A DNA stretch of 64,000 nt from Aeromicrobium phoceense (GTDB lineage: Bacteria; Actinomycetota; Actinomycetes; Propionibacteriales; Nocardioidaceae). The stretch covers positions 372,001 through 436,000 of the forward strand of contig NZ_JACEOG010000001.1 in the NCBI RefSeq assembly GCF_013868155.1, given 5' to 3'. The notes below the pieces were generated by a model. It saw only the letters and a list, made by a program, of their open reading frames with translations. It had not been told where the DNA came from and did no database searches. Below, one piece after another: positions 4,431 to 10,662 of this stretch. The stretch's first letter is position 1. The number at the start of each line of letters is the position of its first letter. The translations under genes and the position numbers were made by a program.

Positions 4431-4898
4431 GTGACGACCGTCCTGACCTACGGAACCTTCGACCTCTTCCACATCGGCCACCTGCGCCTGCTGGAGCGCC
4501 TGTCCTCGATGGGCGACCGGCTCGTCGTCGGGGTCTCCACCGACGACTTCAACGCCGGGAAGGGCAAGAGCACGGTGGTCCCCTACGCCGATCGCGCCGC
4601 GATCGTGGGCGCCATCAAGGGCGTCGACCTGGTCCTGCCGGAGGAGTCGTGGGAGCAGAAGCGCCGCGACATCGTCGAGCAGGAGGTCGACGTGTTCGTC
4701 ATGGGCGACGACTGGACGGGCAAGTTCGACGACCTCTCCGACCTGTGCCGCGTGGAGTACCTCCCCCGCACGAAGGGCATCTCCACCACGGGACTCAAGG
4801 AGATGCTGCGCGTGCTGGACCCGGCACACATCGAGGAGATGCAGGACGCGCTGGGCGTCCTCTCACGCCTGCTCGACCACTACCGCGACCTCACCTGA
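4431..4898 (+). CDS. tagD: Glycerol-3-phosphate cytidylyltransferase-like nucleotidyltransferase
   Basis: Cytidylyltransferase-fold enzyme; the closest match is TagD, which makes CDP-glycerol from CTP and sn-glycerol-3-phosphate. The 155-residue protein has GTFDLFHIGH (the HxGH nucleotide-binding motif) near its start and RTKGISTT in the C-terminal half, the two class signatures. It is slightly longer than classical TagD (about 130 residues). GTG 4431 follows TATCCT by 6 nt. A role in supplying CDP-glycerol to the TagF-like protein at 49.3-51.8 kb is plausible but inferred. The 3' end overlaps the convergent kinase gene by 36 bases. Confidence 0.85.
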   Translation: MTTVLTYGTFDLFHIGHLRLLERLSSMGDRLVVGVSTDDFNAGKGKSTVVPYADRAAIVGAIKGVDLVLPEESWEQKRRDIVEQEVDVFVMGDDWTGKFDDLSDLCRVEYLPRTKGISTTGLKEMLRVLDPAHIEEMQDALGVLSRLLDHYRDLT

Positions 4899-6134
4899 CT
4901 CGCCGAGGCCCGGCAGCAGCAGCCGGAAGGTGGTGTGCTCGGCCCCGACGAGCTCGAGGTAGCCGCCCATCGTGCTCGCGAGGTCGGCGGCGATCGTCAG
5001 TCCGAGACCGCCCACGTCGCCCTGCTTGCGGCTGGCGCCGCGGTTGAAGATCTCGTTCCCGAAGGTACGGCGCCCGCGGTCGGCCACCACGATCTCCACG
5101 TAGGAGCCGGTGTCCCTGGCCTCGACGGTGACCGGGCTGACGCCGTGGCTCGACGCATTCTCGATGAGCACGTCGAGGATCTGCACCACCGGCCCCGGGA
5201 CGACGCGAGCGAAGACCTGGCCCCGCTCGATCTGGTGCACCATGTAGTTGTCGGGTGCGACGATCGGCTTCCAGCGAGCGACCACGTCACTCACCAGCTC
5301 GCTCAGGTCGACGTCGGAGGCGTCGCCCAGTCGTTGACCCCGGGCCAGACCCAGCAGCTCGTCGATCGCACTGCTCAGCCGGTCGAGCTCAGGCAGGTAG
5401 CGATTGAGCTCCTCGGCGACCTCGGGCGGCGTCTGCGGCCACATCGAGAGGTCCTCCAGCTCGAGGCGCAGCGCCGTGATCGGCGTCCGCAGCTGGTGCG
5501 AGGCGTTGGCCGCGAACTCGCGCTCCCGACGCACGAGCTCGCCCAGCCGGGCGGAGCTCGTCCGCAGAGCGGCGCCGATCGCCTCGGCCTCGGGGATCGA
5601 GTAGTGCGGGGGATCCACGTCGAAGCGTCCGAGGCCCAACCGGTCGGCCGCCTCGGCGAGCTCGTCGAAGGGCCGCGACAGCCGCCGCGCCAGGACGTAG
5701 CCGAAGGCCGCGGCGATCGCCACGAGGCTGAGGCCGATGAGGATCAGCGGCACGAGCGCGTCGGAGATCCGCTCCTCGATGAGGTCGCGCGACCGCGACA
5801 GCGTGAGCGTCCCGCCGTCCTCCAGGTCGCGCTTCGCCACGATGTCGTCCGCGGGGTCGACCTCGGGCCCGGCGACGACGGGAGACCCGGTCTCGGGCTC
5901 GTAGGTCAGTGTCTCGGCCTCGCTGAGGAAGCCGCTGAGGAACTCCACGTCCACCGCGGAGTCGTTCTTGCGCCGCTCGTCGACGACGGCGGCCAGCTGG
6001 TCGGCGGCCCGCTCGATCTTGCGCTCCTCGTACGAGGTGACGAGGTCGGCGAGCATGTAGGCGCGCGGGATGCCGTAGAGGGCGAGCATCGCCGCGGTCA
6101 TGCCCACGAGGGCCACGACCAGCCGCTCACGCAT
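4863..6134 (-). CDS. Sensor histidine kinase of the surface-fibre locus
   Basis: Membrane-bound two-component kinase, 423 residues. Helix 1 spans about residues 5-27, a short extracytoplasmic sensor about 28-126, helix 2 about 127-148, then a HAMP linker. The H-box is ASHQLRTPITALRLELEDL with the phosphoacceptor His at about 213. The N-box is ILDVLIENASSHG, followed by a DRG motif and GGLGLTIA in the ATP lid. ATG 6134 overlaps the response regulator stop by 8 bases, so the pair is translationally coupled. It is the last gene of the TasA/SipW/Ig locus and probably senses the cell surface. The stimulus is unknown. The 3' end runs 36 bases into tagD. Confidence 0.93.
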   Translation of the reverse strand: MRERLVVALVGMTAAMLALYGIPRAYMLADLVTSYEERKIERAADQLAAVVDERRKNDSAVDVEFLSGFLSEAETLTYEPETGSPVVAGPEVDPADDIVAKRDLEDGGTLTLSRSRDLIEERISDALVPLILIGLSLVAIAAAFGYVLARRLSRPFDELAEAADRLGLGRFDVDPPHYSIPEAEAIGAALRTSSARLGELVRREREFAANASHQLRTPITALRLELEDLSMWPQTPPEVAEELNRYLPELDRLSSAIDELLGLARGQRLGDASDVDLSELVSDVVARWKPIVAPDNYMVHQIERGQVFARVVPGPVVQILDVLIENASSHGVSPVTVEARDTGSYVEIVVADRGRRTFGNEIFNRGASRKQGDVGGLGLTIAADLASTMGGYLELVGAEHTTFRLLLPGLGESGEVAVVVEQA

Positions 6135-6834
6135 CGGCCTGGTCCTCCAGCCGGAAGCCCACGCCGCGGACGTTCGTGATCTGCACCGGCGCACCGGCGT
6201 CCTCGAGCTTCTGACGCAGGCGGCCCACCGTGGCGTCGACCATCTTCGTCGAGCCGAACCAGTTCTCGTCCCAGACGTCGCTGGTCAGGCGCTCGCGGGT
6301 GACCACCGCTCCCCGCACCTCGTCGAGCAGGACGAGGACGTCGAACTCCTTCGACGTCACGGCCACCTCGGCGTCGTTCACCCAGATGCGGCGCGAGGCC
6401 GGGTCCACGCGCAGGCCGGACGCGCCCGGCGCCGCGGGAGCGGGCGCGGCCGGCTCCACCGGCGCGCTGCGGCGCAGCAGGGCGCGCGCCCGGGCGAGGA
6501 GCTCGGCCAGGGCGAAGGGCTTGGACAGGTAGTCGTCGGCGCCGACGTCGAGGCCCACCACGCGATCGAGCTCGCCGTCGCGAGCGGTCAGGATGATGAT
6601 GCCGCCGCGGTAGCCGCCCTCGCGAGCCCGGCGGCACACCTCGAGCCCGTCGATGTCGGGCAGGCCGAGATCCAGGAGCACCAGGTCGAGGTCGCCCAGC
6701 GCGATCCGCTCGACCGCCGTGATGCCCTCGGCCACCCACTCGACGACATAGCCCTCACGCTCGAGCGTGCGGACCAGGGGCGGGGCGATCTTGTCGTCGT
6801 CCTCGACGACGAGCACTTGGGTGGCCACGATCAC
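6127..6834 (-). CDS. OmpR-family response regulator of the surface-fibre locus
   Basis: DNA-binding response regulator, 235 residues. The receiver domain has the acidic pocket (VVEDDD), the phosphoacceptor Asp at about 55 (LVLLDLGLPD) and the conserved Lys in YLSKPFA. A Pro/Ala-rich linker leads to a winged-helix Trans_reg_C domain (TSKEFDVLVLL to VRGVGFRLE). GTG 6834 is chosen because it forms a GTGA overlap with the stop of the upstream membrane gene. OmpR-type proteins bind direct repeats about 11 bp apart, which matches the GTGGA arrays upstream of the TasA-like and Ig-like genes. That it binds them is inference. Confidence 0.94.
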   Translation of the reverse strand: MIVATQVLVVEDDDKIAPPLVRTLEREGYVVEWVAEGITAVERIALGDLDLVLLDLGLPDIDGLEVCRRAREGGYRGGIIILTARDGELDRVVGLDVGADDYLSKPFALAELLARARALLRRSAPVEPAAPAPAAPGASGLRVDPASRRIWVNDAEVAVTSKEFDVLVLLDEVRGAVVTRERLTSDVWDENWFGSTKMVDATVGRLRQKLEDAGAPVQITNVRGVGFRLEDQADA

Positions 6835-7223
6835 CGAGCATAGGGCCGACGCGTGTGACGAGCGTGCTCCCGTCGCACGCGCCCGTCCTGCACCAGCAGA
6901 CACACGACCCCCACGCTGAGCAGGATCAGCACCAAGCGGGTGGCCGAGAGGTCGCCCCCACCGTCGCCGGGGAGTCCCACCGTCATGGCCAGCAGGCTGC
7001 TGCCCGCCGTCGCGGCCACGAGCGCGCCGGCGCCCAGGTGCGACTCGAAGCAGTTGTGCATCCACATCTTCACGGCGGTGAGACCGGCGACCGCGGCGAT
7101 CACGATCTCCATCACGACGTAGACGCGTGACGGTGCCGCCGGGATCAGCGTGAGGTAGACCAGACCGATCGCCAGACAGGCGGCCGCGGCCCAGCGAGAG
7201 GCGGTCGTGCGCAGGCGTCGCAT
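6831..7223 (-). CDS. Small polytopic membrane protein of the surface-fibre locus
   Basis: A 130-residue protein of unknown family with four predicted membrane helices, at about residues 12-30, 33-51, 60-80 and 90-110, and a basic C-terminal tail (RVRREHARHTRRPYAR). The second loop contains a single Cys (WMHNCFESH). The ATG overlaps the stop of the Ig-repeat gene by one base and its stop overlaps the response regulator start (GTGA), so it is surely co-expressed with both. It might relay surface status to the kinase or help secretion; neither is shown by the sequence. Confidence 0.8.
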   Translation of the reverse strand: MRRLRTTASRWAAAACLAIGLVYLTLIPAAPSRVYVVMEIVIAAVAGLTAVKMWMHNCFESHLGAGALVAATAGSSLLAMTVGLPGDGGGDLSATRLVLILLSVGVVCLLVQDGRVRREHARHTRRPYAR

Positions 7224-9079
7224 CAGAAGTCCTTGTCGGCGGTGCCGGATTCGGTGACGTTGGCGGTGGAGGAGCGGATGCCCGAGAGGTCGGTGGCCGC
7301 GTTGCTCGGGGTCCACACCATCGCGGCGGCGGTGGTGTTCGTCCGTAGGTCGCTCGCCTTGCCACTGGCGAAGGTGCCCAGCTTCAGCGTCACGACCGTG
7401 CGCTCCAGGCCGTTCACCGTCGTGGTGTTGGCGGTCATCGTCGCGTTGAGGCTCACGGTGCGCAGCAGGCGGACGTAGTCGCCCTTGAGGTTGACCGAGC
7501 CCAGGCCCAGCACGGTGCTGCCGTTGAGGACGTCGAGCGTGTCGCCCTTGCTGCCGCGGAGCAGCGCCGGCAGGTTGCCGTCGCGGAGCCGGACCTGCAC
7601 GTTCGTGGCCGACCCGTTCCAGCCCGCCATGACCGAGGCCGGGTTGACCTGCGCGGTGTACGTGAAGGTGATCGTGTCGTTCGCACCCGGCAGGCCGGCG
7701 GTGCTGCCCGAGCCGTTGGTGGTCTGGACGTCGGCTCCCGCGAGGGGGCTGTTGTCCACCGGCACCGTCTCGAGAGCGGAGATCGTCGTCCGTCCGGAGC
7801 CGTCGAGCAGGACTGCGCGCAGGTCGTACACGGCGCTGGCGACCTTCGTGGTGTCCCACGAGCAGGTGTAGGGCGACGTGGTGTCGGTGCAGACATCGGT
7901 CCAGGTGGAGCCGCCGGTCGGGGCGTACTGGATCCGCACCGAGGTGACGCCGGCGGTGGAGCTGGCGACGGCGGTGAGCGTGGCCGTGCGGCTCAGCAGC
8001 GCGCCGGGGTCGTCGAGCGACACCGAGGACACCGTGTTGTCGACGACGCGGTTCGCCACGGCGGCCGAGGTCGTCGTGTTGCCGGCCTCGTCGGTGGCGA
8101 CCGCGCGGAACGAGTAGGTGCCGCTCGTCAGCGCAGTGGTGGCGACGCGGCAGGACCACGGCTCGGCCTCGATCGTGCACAGCGACTTCCACGTGGTGGT
8201 GCCGGAAGCCGCGTACTGGAGCTCGACGGTGGCGACGCCGGAGTGGGCGTCGGCGGCCGTCGCGGCGAAGGTGCGCGTGCCGCTCAGCGGCGTGCCGGGG
8301 TCGGTCATCGTGACGGTCGGGGCGACGTTGTCGACGGTGACGTCGGTGACGACCTCCGACGTGGTGGTGGTCGAGCCGGCCGTGAGCTGGGCGCGGAACT
8401 CGTAGTCACCGGACGCGACGGCGGCCGAGTTCCACGAGCACGTGTAGGGAGAGACGAGGTTCGAGCAGGCGGTCGACCAAGTGGAGGCGCCCACCAGTCG
8501 GTACTGCAGGCGCACCGTGTGGCTGAGCGTGCCCGTGTTGAAGACGCCCGCCGAGAGCTGCACCGTGCCGCGGACCGTGTCGCCCGGGTCGTTCATCACG
8601 ACGAGCAGCTTGTTCGCGACGGCCGTGCGGACGGAGTCGGACGTGGTCTCGTACCCGGCGAGGTCGGTCGCGCGGGCCCGGAGGTCGTAGCGGCCGTCGG
8701 CGAGTGCGGTGGTGGTCCACGCGCAGGAGTACGGGGCGGTCGCGTCGGTGCACAGCGCGGTCCAGGTGCCGGATCCGGCGGGGCTGTACTCGACCGTGAC
8801 GTCCTTGACGCCGAGCCCGGAGTCGGAGGCCTGCGCCTCGATCGTCACCGCGCCCTGGACCGCCGTGCCGGGGGACGTCACGGCGACGGTCGGAGGCGTC
8901 CAGTCCGCGGCGGCGCGCACGGTGGCGGTGCCCTGCGTGGTGGAGGTGAAGGTCGCGGACGAGAAGCCCGGGGAGATGAAGGCGGCCACCGCGAGCAGGG
9001 CCAGAACGGCCAGCAGGGTCAGGGAACGACGCGCGGAGTCGATGCGCACGGGTCCACCTGCCTTCTGGTTCCGGTTCAT
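7223..9079 (-). CDS. Secreted surface protein with four Ig-like repeats
   Basis: A 618-residue exported protein. Residues about 17-58 form a signal region with a hydrophobic helix followed by SSATFTSTTQGTATV, the pattern of SipW-dependent signal peptides. Four Ig-like repeats of about 96 residues follow (about 60-440). Each has a Cys pair spaced C-x8-C at 110/119, 205/214, 301/310 and 397/406, next to Y(T/S)C(S/A)W-type sequence, suggesting one disulfide per repeat. A distinct C-terminal domain of about 170 residues follows, with no LPXTG or membrane anchor. ATG 9079 lies 7 nt after TAGCGT (leaderless). A longer GTG/ATG start would run into the promoter array. It probably works as an adhesin or fibre-associated protein. 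Confidence 0.9.
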   Translation of the reverse strand: MNRNQKAGGPVRIDSARRSLTLLAVLALLAVAAFISPGFSSATFTSTTQGTATVRAAADWTPPTVAVTSPGTAVQGAVTIEAQASDSGLGVKDVTVEYSPAGSGTWTALCTDATAPYSCAWTTTALADGRYDLRARATDLAGYETTSDSVRTAVANKLLVVMNDPGDTVRGTVQLSAGVFNTGTLSHTVRLQYRLVGASTWSTACSNLVSPYTCSWNSAAVASGDYEFRAQLTAGSTTTTSEVVTDVTVDNVAPTVTMTDPGTPLSGTRTFAATAADAHSGVATVELQYAASGTTTWKSLCTIEAEPWSCRVATTALTSGTYSFRAVATDEAGNTTTSAAVANRVVDNTVSSVSLDDPGALLSRTATLTAVASSTAGVTSVRIQYAPTGGSTWTDVCTDTTSPYTCSWDTTKVASAVYDLRAVLLDGSGRTTISALETVPVDNSPLAGADVQTTNGSGSTAGLPGANDTITFTYTAQVNPASVMAGWNGSATNVQVRLRDGNLPALLRGSKGDTLDVLNGSTVLGLGSVNLKGDYVRLLRTVSLNATMTANTTTVNGLERTVVTLKLGTFASGKASDLRTNTTAAAMVWTPSNAATDLSGIRSSTANVTESGTADKDF

Positions 9080-9085
9080 GGGGTC

Positions 9086-9141
9086 AACGCTACGGAGCAG
9101 CGCTCCACGGGCGATCCACACGAGATCCTCGGGAGTTCCAC
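9086..9141 (-). promoter_or_regulatory. GTGGA-array promoter of the Ig-repeat gene
   Basis: On the minus strand, GTGGA boxes lie at 9137-9141, 9126-9130 (GAGGA, one mismatch), 9115-9119 and 9104-9108, each exactly 11 bp apart, then 7 bp, then TCCGTAGCGTT (9086-9096). The last element holds a TAGCGT -10 hexamer that ends 7 nt before the ATG, implying a leaderless mRNA. Box spacing, distance and 11-mer are the same as in the TasA-like promoter. Direct repeats with an 11-bp period are typical of OmpR-family sites. Confidence 0.8.
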
Positions 9142-9167
9142 ACTTCGCTGCAGGGCGCGGTGACGAC

Positions 9168-9806
9168 TCAGGTGAGCGCGTGGCGGCCGACGACGGCCAC
9201 GGGGATGGCCCGAGCGCCGGCCTTCTTCGCCGGGGCGCCGGCGGTGGGGGTCAGCGGCGCGGGGGCGTCGTCGTCCTCGGGGCGACGCAGGGCGCGGCCG
9301 AGATCGACCAGGGCGATCAGCGCGATGAGCCCGGCCGGCACGCCGGTGACGAGCATCCGGGTCTCGCGGTCGGCCAGGGCCATGAAGGCGTACCCGACGT
9401 ACGGGACGGTCTGCTCCACGACCGGCTGGGTGCCCGAGAGGAGGCTGAACTCCCACGGGTCGGGGTCGGGATTGGCGTCGCCCTGGGTCGTGAAGAGGCG
9501 GGCGCCGCTCTCGCCGGGCTCGATCTGCGTGATGCGGTGCGTCACGAGCGTCGAGACGCCGCTGTCCGCCGGGGGGAGGTAGGTGATGACGTCGCCGACG
9601 GCGAGGTCGGCCACGGGCACGGGGCGCTCGAAGGCGATCGAGCCCTTCTCGAACGTGCCGGACATCGAGCCGCCCGTGATGACGTAACGCTCGAAGCCGA
9701 ACAGGCTGGGGGCGATGTAGGCCACGCTGGCGACGGTGACGACGAGCAGGAGCAGCGTCGTGACGCCACGGCCGAGCAGGCGGGCTGCTCGCGTGAGGTG
9801 CTTCAT
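9168..9806 (-). CDS. sipW: Signal peptidase I, SipW/ER type
   Basis: Membrane serine protease that removes signal peptides. The 212-residue protein has an N-terminal helix (about 14-34), then GGSMSGTFEKGS with the catalytic Ser and LVTHRI, where His replaces the Lys of ordinary bacterial signal peptidases, as in SipW and the eukaryotic ER enzyme. TTQGDANPDPDP is the third conserved block. A second helix lies at about 150-168, followed by a Pro/Ala-rich cytoplasmic tail. It sits between the two genes whose products carry SipW-type signal regions, so these are its likely substrates (inference). The start is ATG 9806, 107 nt after the TasA-like gene. Confidence 0.93.
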   Translation of the reverse strand: MKHLTRAARLLGRGVTTLLLLVVTVASVAYIAPSLFGFERYVITGGSMSGTFEKGSIAFERPVPVADLAVGDVITYLPPADSGVSTLVTHRITQIEPGESGARLFTTQGDANPDPDPWEFSLLSGTQPVVEQTVPYVGYAFMALADRETRMLVTGVPAGLIALIALVDLGRALRRPEDDDAPAPLTPTAGAPAKKAGARAIPVAVVGRHALT

Positions 9807-9853
9807 CTGGGACTCCTTCGTCGATCGGTTCTGGTGGGTCGGTGTGCTCCGGG

Positions 9854-9896
9854 CTGGGTGGCAGGGCGCCCGAACGACGCCCTGCCGTCAACCCAG
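9854..9896 (-). terminator. Hairpin between the TasA-like gene and sipW
   Basis: GGCAGGGCG (9860-9868) pairs perfectly with CGCCCTGCC (9878-9886) around a 9-nt loop. Outer arms CTGGGT (9854-9859) and ACCCAG (9891-9896) extend the stem past a 4-nt bulge. No long T-tract follows. It probably acts as a partial terminator or mRNA 3'-end stabiliser, giving more fibre protein than peptidase from one transcript. Confidence 0.6.
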
Positions 9897-9913
9897 TTCC
9901 CCGGAGCGGGGCG

Positions 9914-10450
9914 TCACTGGTTGGTGGTGGTCCCGTCCAGCTGGACGGCGTCCCACGTGTACGTGGCGGTCGCGGCCTTGCCCTGCTGCGTGTTGGACGC
10001 GGCCTGGTCGAGGGTGACCGTGAAGGTGTAGTCGTTCGCCTCGCCGGCGGCCCACGTGCCGAGCGTGTTCTTGGTGCCGTCGGCCAGGCCGCCGAAGGTG
10101 CCCGAGTAGACGGTCGTGTTCTTCGTCGTGTTCTTGATGACGAGCTTGAGGTTCTCGCCGTCGAAGCCGTTGGTGGAGGCGACCTCGGTCAGCGAGAAGT
10201 TCGCGGGCAGCGTGCCGGTGTTGGTCAGCTTGAGCGAGCCGTTGAGGACGTCGCCCGGCTTGAGGTTGTCGAGGTTGAAGACCGCCTGGCCGGCCTTGGA
10301 GTTGCTCTGCGTCAGCGTGCCGGAGGTGGCGGCGCTGATGGTGTTGCCTGTGGTCGAGCTGAAGGTCGCACCCGAGCCCACGGCGATGACGCCGGCGGCC
10401 AGCAGCGTGGCGAGGGGGACGAGGACCTTGGTGGAACGGCTGGTGCGCAT
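9914..10450 (-). CDS. TasA/camelysin-like secreted fibre protein
   Basis: A 178-residue exported protein of the TasA/camelysin (M73) family, whose Bacillus members form amyloid-like matrix fibres after SipW processing. The signal region is a helix at about 9-27 followed by GSGATFSSTTGNTISAATSG. The mature part contains FNLDNLKPGDVLNGSLKLTNTGTLPANF, which matches the NLxPGD strand of TasA. No Cys occurs in the mature part. ATG 10450 has a GGAGAAG ribosome site and a 60-nt leader from TAGCGT. It is the first gene of the locus. The fibre role is inferred from the family; no protease function is expected. Confidence 0.88.
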   Translation of the reverse strand: MRTSRSTKVLVPLATLLAAGVIAVGSGATFSSTTGNTISAATSGTLTQSNSKAGQAVFNLDNLKPGDVLNGSLKLTNTGTLPANFSLTEVASTNGFDGENLKLVIKNTTKNTTVYSGTFGGLADGTKNTLGTWAAGEANDYTFTVTLDQAASNTQQGKAATATYTWDAVQLDGTTTNQ

Positions 10451-10510
10451 GTGCTTCTCCTGTGTTCGGGTGCCGGCCGCGCTCTGCGGCCTGGCTGGGT
10501 TGACAAGAAG

Positions 10511-10607
10511 AACGCTACGGAGGCCAGATCCACACGATGTCCACGTGGAATCCACCGCCGGTCCCCACTTCGGCACCGTTTGTCCACCGCTGCGCCACCA
10601 GGTCCAC
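10511..10607 (-). promoter_or_regulatory. GTGGA-array promoter of the TasA-like gene
   Basis: On the minus strand GTGGA occurs at 10551-10555, 10540-10544 and 10529-10533, exactly 11 bp apart, with a one-mismatch copy (GGGGA) in phase at 10562-10566. After 7 bp comes TCCGTAGCGTT (10511-10521), the same 11-mer as at the Ig-repeat promoter. Further copies lie at 10583-10587 and 10603-10607, with GTGGC at 10594-10598. TAGCGT is the likely -10, leaving a leader of about 60 nt. The array would be bound by an activator overlapping the -35 region. Confidence 0.8.
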
Positions 10608-10618
10608 ACGCATGACGA

Positions 10619-10648
10619 AGGGCCCCGGGAGATCACTCCCGGGGCCCT
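10619..10648 (-). terminator. Strong hairpin terminator after the sulfur operon
   Basis: AGGGCCCCGGGAG (10619-10631) pairs perfectly over 13 bp with CTCCCGGGGCCCT (10636-10648) around an ATCA loop. It lies 14 nt past the DUF1416 stop on the minus strand and separates the sulfur operon from the TasA-like promoter array. Confidence 0.85.
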
Positions 10649-10662
10649 ACGGTGCTGCTGGG

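Follow-up and report, generated by a model that had tools for sequence, protein, structure and literature searches.

Tandem 11-bp repeat arrays as predicted operators of an OmpR/PhoB-type response regulator at a TasA/SipW/Ig-repeat surface-protein locus of Aeromicrobium and other Nocardioidaceae

In Bacillus, the tapA-sipW-tasA genes place a TasA/camelysin-type exported protein beside a dedicated SipW-type signal peptidase, and SinR is among the regulators that control them; an adjacent two-component system is not known to do so. The Streptomyces DraK/DraR pair is a two-component system, with antibiotic genes as the targets of DraR. The PhoB pho box of the Escherichia coli pstS promoter, whose sequence we confirmed at 100% identity in genome records, consists of four tandem 11-bp units and lacks a -35 element, its last half-site standing 11 bp from the -10, which we take to be TATTTT (TGTCA-N11-TATTTT). 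More generally, regulators of the OmpR/PhoB type occupy direct repeats in the form of tandem dimers (PMC4832192), a PHO box comprises two direct repeat units of 11 nt (PMC4415409), and a pho box usually stands in for the -35 (PMC4971064). Among actinobacteria, the PHO boxes of Streptomyces PhoP, an OmpR-family regulator, have 11-nt direct repeat units (GTTCACC; PMC6988585) and are part of the phosphate regulon, and Mycobacterium tuberculosis PhoP, which belongs to the same family as RegX3 and MtrA, forms a tandem dimer on direct repeats (PMC4832192).

Here we compare with these systems a locus of Aeromicrobium phoceense contained in a 64-kb window, i.e., the whole stretch of DNA analysed (64,000 nucleotides). 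On its minus strand lie, in this order, a tasA-like gene, a SipW-type signal peptidase gene, an Ig-repeat gene, orf3, a response regulator gene (RR) and a histidine kinase gene (HK):

9914-10450, minus strand: TasA/camelysin-family exported protein, 178 aa (PF12389, 27.4 bits vs. a cut-off of 22.5)
9860-9886, no strand assigned: perfect 9-bp hairpin in the tasA-sipW gap, seen in the sequence
9168-9806, minus strand: signal peptidase I of the SipW/archaeal type (TIGR02228, 67.1 bits vs. a cut-off of 51.85)
7223-9079, minus strand: Ig-repeat exported protein (Big_7 and Big_13), with an alternative GTG start at 9049
6831-7223, minus strand: orf3, a small hydrophobic protein, overlapping the Ig stop codon
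6127-6834, minus strand: OmpR/PhoB-type RR (PF00072 and PF00486), proposed binder of both arrays described below
4863-6134, minus strand: sensor HK with a DraK-type N-terminal sensor domain, its start overlapping the end of the RR gene

The tasA-like protein belongs to the TasA/camelysin family by its PF12389 score, above the curated cut-off, and does not reach the narrower Bacillus TasA equivalog (21.9 vs. a cut-off of 450). Modelled with AlphaFold at modest confidence (pLDDT 70.6), it has its best PDB match in the TasA fibre 8aur (E 5.7e-4, TM 0.47). Likewise, the signal peptidase scores 58.6 against the Bacillus SipW equivalog (cut-off 190). The locus resembles tapA-sipW-tasA in pairing a TasA-type protein with a probable SipW-type peptidase of its own, and differs from it in gene order, in the added Ig-repeat protein and in leaving both Bacillus equivalog cut-offs unreached. 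The kinase shares with Streptomyces DraK its sensor domain (PF18092, 29.1 vs. 26.4 bits). Alongside these putative targets is encoded the RR, with a receiver domain (PF00072, 90.1 bits) and a winged-helix Trans_reg_C domain (PF00486, 75.5 bits), as expected from the OmpR-family regulator that the initial annotation had placed at 6127-6834. By curated cut-offs this RR is not PhoB (158.8 vs. 296.2 bits for the PhoB equivalog), MtrA (NF040689, 162.7 vs. 300 bits, which places it outside the MtrA regulon) or CseB. Its best solved-structure match is RegX3 (2oqr, E 7e-45); by the tests made, however, M. tuberculosis PhoP, RegX3 and MtrA are not its orthologs, and they have other half-sites and targets.

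Overlaps of a few bases join Ig to orf3, orf3 to RR and RR to HK (CTTCTGATGCG, CGGTGATCGTG and GCCGATGCGTGAG, respectively), and these four genes are therefore probably one operon. The hairpin at 9860-9886 is a possible attenuator lowering sipW relative to tasA, which would yield a high tasA:sipW ratio. Rfam searches returned nothing credible at the tasA/Ig locus.

Upstream of tasA and of the Ig gene lie two arrays of tandem repeats, each followed by a -10 element:

10616-10651, no strand assigned: terminator-like 16-bp inverted repeat, with the tasA array on one side and the DUF1416 gene on the other
10567-10577, minus strand: degenerate fifth unit GGTGCCGAAGT of the tasA array, preceding the four units, its CCGAA core kept in the genus
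10512-10566, minus strand: operator/promoter 1 (tasA), four 11-bp units GGGGACCGGCG GTGGATTCCAC GTGGACATCGT GTGGATCTGGC then CTCCGTAGCGT, conserved in genus and family
10512-10517, minus strand: TAGCGT -10 of operator/promoter 1, within CTCCGTAGCGT
9142-9152, minus strand: degenerate fifth unit TGCAGCGAAGT of the Ig array, preceding the four units
9087-9141, minus strand: operator/promoter 2 (Ig-orf3-RR-HK operon), four units GTGGAACTCCC GAGGATCTCGT GTGGATCGCCC GTGGAGCGCTG then CTCCGTAGCGT
9087-9092, minus strand: TAGCGT -10 of operator/promoter 2, within CTCCGTAGCGT

Aligned in register, both promoters follow the pattern G[T/G/A]GGA-N6 repeated four times and ending at CTCCGTAGCGT. The initial annotation had located minus-strand GTGGA boxes at 10551, 10540 and 10529 with an in-phase GGGGA at 10562, and at 9137, 9115 and 9104 with an in-phase GAGGA at 9126, each set followed by an identical 11-mer holding the -10; every box is found at these positions, and the 11-mer TCCGTAGCGTT at 10511-10521 and 9086-9096. 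GGGGA and GAGGA, counted apart at that stage, are indeed in phase and are members of the arrays, which makes four units per promoter rather than three. The degenerate fifth units end in ..CCGAAGT (tasA array) and ..GCGAAGT (Ig array). The further copies described up to 10607 at the tasA promoter also exist (10587, 10598 and 10607), but are off phase by 1, 1 and 3 bp, respectively, and absent in close relatives, and so are probably outside the site proper. We also considered an inverted-repeat reading, as GTGGATTCCAC at 10545-10555 is palindromic, and rejected it since the palindrome is not kept in relatives.

The last GTGGA stands 11 bp from TAGCGT in both promoters of the window (GTGGA-N11-TAGCGT), and no sigma-70 -35/-10 pair was found in the promoter region. 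Instead, the 3' end of the array falls just where a -35 would otherwise lie, as it does in pho-box promoters. Direct half-sites, an 11-bp period, a fixed distance to the -10 and no -35 hexamer, which are sequence characteristics of an OmpR/PhoB-family direct-repeat activator promoter, are found here. The likeness to pstS extends to the four tandem units and the half-site-to-TATTTT distance; the half-site there is TGTCA and here GTGGA, and the targets here are surface proteins, not phosphate genes. The half-site is also neither CTGTCAT nor GTTCACC, which, with the PhoB cut-off unreached, sets these promoters apart from the Pho regulon, and both half-site and regulon differ from those of Streptomyces PhoP.

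From this organisation we infer binding of the arrays by the RR, its phosphorylation, and activation rather than repression. Given the pstS-like geometry, the lack of a -35/-10 pair and the pho-box literature, activation by two tandem RR dimers in place of a -35 is the most likely mode. The adjacent HK would phosphorylate the RR, and the phosphorylated RR would bind head-to-tail on the four 11-bp half-sites as two tandem dimers; the last half-site would replace the absent -35 and place RNA polymerase on the TAGCGT -10. In this way tasA-sipW would be switched on from promoter 1 and Ig-orf3-RR-HK from promoter 2, such that the surface fibre, its signal peptidase, the Ig-repeat protein and the RR would rise together with positive feedback. 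The same RR could conversely bind the array as a repressor, blocking RNA polymerase until a kinase signal relieves it: an array overlapping the -35 place would suit a repressor too, and the operon organisation implies autoregulation under either sign. We hold this to be improbable, as no recognisable -35 is left for the polymerase alone, and the distance to the -10 is constant and matches that of pho-box activator sites.

The ATG of the Ig-repeat gene at 9079 sits 7 nt past the -10, and a leaderless start there is possible. Within the genus the Ig gene has its ATG 6-7 nt past the -10 (window 9077-9092, minus strand, and loci L079, L081, L083, L086, L089 and L091), suggesting a leaderless Ig transcript; an ATG close behind the -10 is mostly missing at loci of other genera.

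In the 64-kb window, GTGGA-N6-GTGGA occurs three times vs. 0.18 expected. As a genome-wide marker this bare pair had to be discarded as too common (16 matches vs. 10 for the reversed control in the 3.27-Mb genome). The composite pattern including the -10, by contrast, has two perfect matches in the 3.27 Mb, both at this locus. When up to 3 mismatches are allowed, it yields 8 matches in this genome vs. 21 for the reversed control, and the weaker matches are thus background. We trained a unit matrix on 30 promoters of other species, leaving out the window and its three closest relatives. It scored the two arrays at 42.1 and 36.2; the runner-up among independent sites of the window reached 6.0, and 100 simulated 64-kb sequences gave 21.1 at most. 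Among periods of 7-17 bp, 11 bp scored 31.0 and every other period below 0.

Across 49 Aeromicrobium genomes, in-frame searches identified tasA in 24 and an RR ortholog in 25. The composite array (up to 3 mismatches) was detected in 21 of the 49, all RR-positive (42 matches vs. 3 for the reversed control), and in none of the 24 RR-negative genomes. Of these arrays, the ones inspected map to the tasA/Ig locus or, where a contig ends, precede this same tasA leader. The pattern overlooked four RR-positive genomes (G017, G030, G031 and G040), yet arrays are present in them too: at tasA the -10 is degenerate or of the CAGAGT type, and at the Ig gene the boxes are shifted two units upstream, helical phase unchanged. 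In one genome (G047, locus L085, 7100-11120), tasA is amplified in tandem, with four copies found and an array ahead of the copies.

At the family level, the RR was detected (E ≤ 1e-60) in 192 of 342 Nocardioidaceae genomes and 8 of 26 genera; at E ≤ 1e-75, 395 sampled genomes of the class showed it in this family only. At many loci outside Aeromicrobium, tasA, sipW, Ig, RR and HK stay together, with four-unit arrays then CTCCSTAGCGTT or GAGCAGAGT ahead of tasA and Ig. A blind search of all 342 genomes for GTGGA-N6-GTGGA-N6-CTCCNTAGCGTT (up to 2 mismatches) returned 48 matches in 38 genomes, the reversed pattern returning 0. By position comparison, 40 of the 48 are no more than about 6 kb from an RR ortholog and, where examined, lie ahead of tasA, Ig or orf3; these 40 include six genomes not looked at before (G129, G138, G154, G162, G211 and G289). 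Another match, ahead of tasA in G214, counts against a role of the RR, as no regulator above 42% identity is present in this genome, and so do some RR-positive loci with only weak arrays by the GTGGA matrix (L206, L210 and L211 among them). The remaining 7 matches are sites unlinked to the RR, in genomes with a more distant RR type. Overall, as the initial annotation predicted, the array is retained in relatives and does not turn up at random genome positions in the own-genome, genus and family searches. Physical linkage of the RR with array and targets, and their possible co-inheritance, make the co-occurrence partly automatic.

Where RR-HK sits away from tasA (L215 in G325, L214 in G332 and the second RR copy of G333, L208), an array lies directly before orf3-RR-HK, which indicates that the array follows the regulator; at the rearranged loci L204 and L217 it lies before orf3 or RR. 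Together with the operon structure in the window, the arrays before orf3-RR-HK imply autoregulation of the RR via the predicted Ig-orf3-RR-HK operon. A sister RR clade (L226-L239 and L241, about 60-64% identity) is mostly without tasA nearby, and some of its members have a SipW-type gene behind GTTACC-containing arrays.

The recognition helix of the RR is near-invariant (WDENW[FY]GSTK[TM][LV]D-x-T...GRLRQKL) save for position x, which is A or T at GTGGA loci and V where the arrays hold GTTACC or GTTGCC units. GTTRCC half-sites accompany V at 14 of 15 loci and GTGGA accompanies A or T at 33 of 34, i.e., 47 of 49 loci are concordant, a count in which the array assignments for L208, L214, L215 and L217 were read by eye. 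In our own alignment, position x corresponds to Ser216 of M. tuberculosis PhoP, a residue in the major groove near the bases (PMC4832192). Residue x changes about three times on the RR tree, and an independent-pairs test falls short of significance; with the RR confined to this family in the 395-genome class sample, more independent changes are not easily found. This covariation of helix and half-site is thus a strong hint, not proof, of a link between RR and array.

Taken together, each array very probably represents a binding site for the OmpR/PhoB-type RR encoded at 6127-6834, through which tasA-sipW and Ig-orf3-RR-HK would be activated. The dedicated operator co-regulating two surface proteins proposed in the initial annotation is in this respect supported by the co-occurrence, by the arrays ahead of regulator genes and by the helix covariation, with the amendment that the second array is predicted to drive a whole operon including orf3, RR and kinase, not the Ig gene alone.

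Could another protein read the arrays, the neighbouring RR being incidental? One might invoke another OmpR-family regulator, a cooperative binder of direct repeats like BldC, or an alternative sigma factor: further actinobacterial proteins bind direct repeats (BldC for example, PMC5859096), the G214 array has no close RR ortholog, and some species carry an extra GAF-histidine kinase upstream of tasA. This appears very improbable in view of the RR-negative genomes of the genus, which are without the array despite keeping many other regulators, of the arrays before orf3/RR-HK where these sit apart from tasA, and of the joint variation of RR helix residue and half-site. The gene for the GAF-domain histidine kinase ends just before the tasA operator at five loci (L080, L086, L088, L089 and L091), and at L217 (2489-3697) such a kinase lies beside HK; it is possibly an extra input to the same system. 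As cognate partner we rejected it, for no regulator gene adjoins it and it is missing from the window locus. Finally, common as bare GTGGA-N6-GTGGA may be in this GC-rich genome, a chance or low-complexity similarity in G-rich DNA is already refuted by leave-out scores far above simulations, the specific 11-bp period, the clean control in 342 genomes and conservation across several genera, and this explanation, a functionless duplicated promoter included, retains a negligible probability.

An RR-unlinked operator of the same type precedes a short region in seven genomes of one other genus of the family (g18, probably Nocardioides):

L292, 447-646, minus strand: candidate small RNA region
L293, 131-330, plus strand: candidate small RNA region
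L294, 443-642, minus strand: candidate small RNA region
L295, 447-646, minus strand: candidate small RNA region
L296, 439-638, minus strand: candidate small RNA region
L297, 130-329, plus strand: candidate small RNA region
L298, 130-329, plus strand: candidate small RNA region

These regions have no convincing reading frame. Hairpins in them hold 2-4 GGGGGG runs, most of the regions also have a terminator-like hairpin, and they are thus candidates for a small RNA; covariation support is weak, and Rfam gave nothing credible for them.

Our search of an open-access library found no paper that connects actinobacterial SipW/TasA with a two-component system. The kind of operator predicted here is known (direct repeats of the OmpR/PhoB type); this regulator, this half-site and a surface-fibre regulon were not found in the literature searched. 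What would emerge is an actinobacterial TasA/SipW/Ig surface system under its own dedicated two-component control, identified from sequence alone, with a sharply defined operator and one residue/half-site pair with which to study specificity in the OmpR/PhoB family. It is further tempting to speculate, with doubt somewhat outweighing confidence, that a Nocardioidaceae-specific regulator family has co-evolved its recognition helix with its operator, V at the PhoP Ser216 position reading GTTRCC and A or T reading GTGGA, and that operators of this one type drive not only surface-fibre/SipW loci but also the operon of the regulator itself and, in some genomes of the Nocardioides group, a G-rich small RNA. 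If true, this co-evolved set of helices and operators would be a natural series for studying how half-site specificity changes in the OmpR family.
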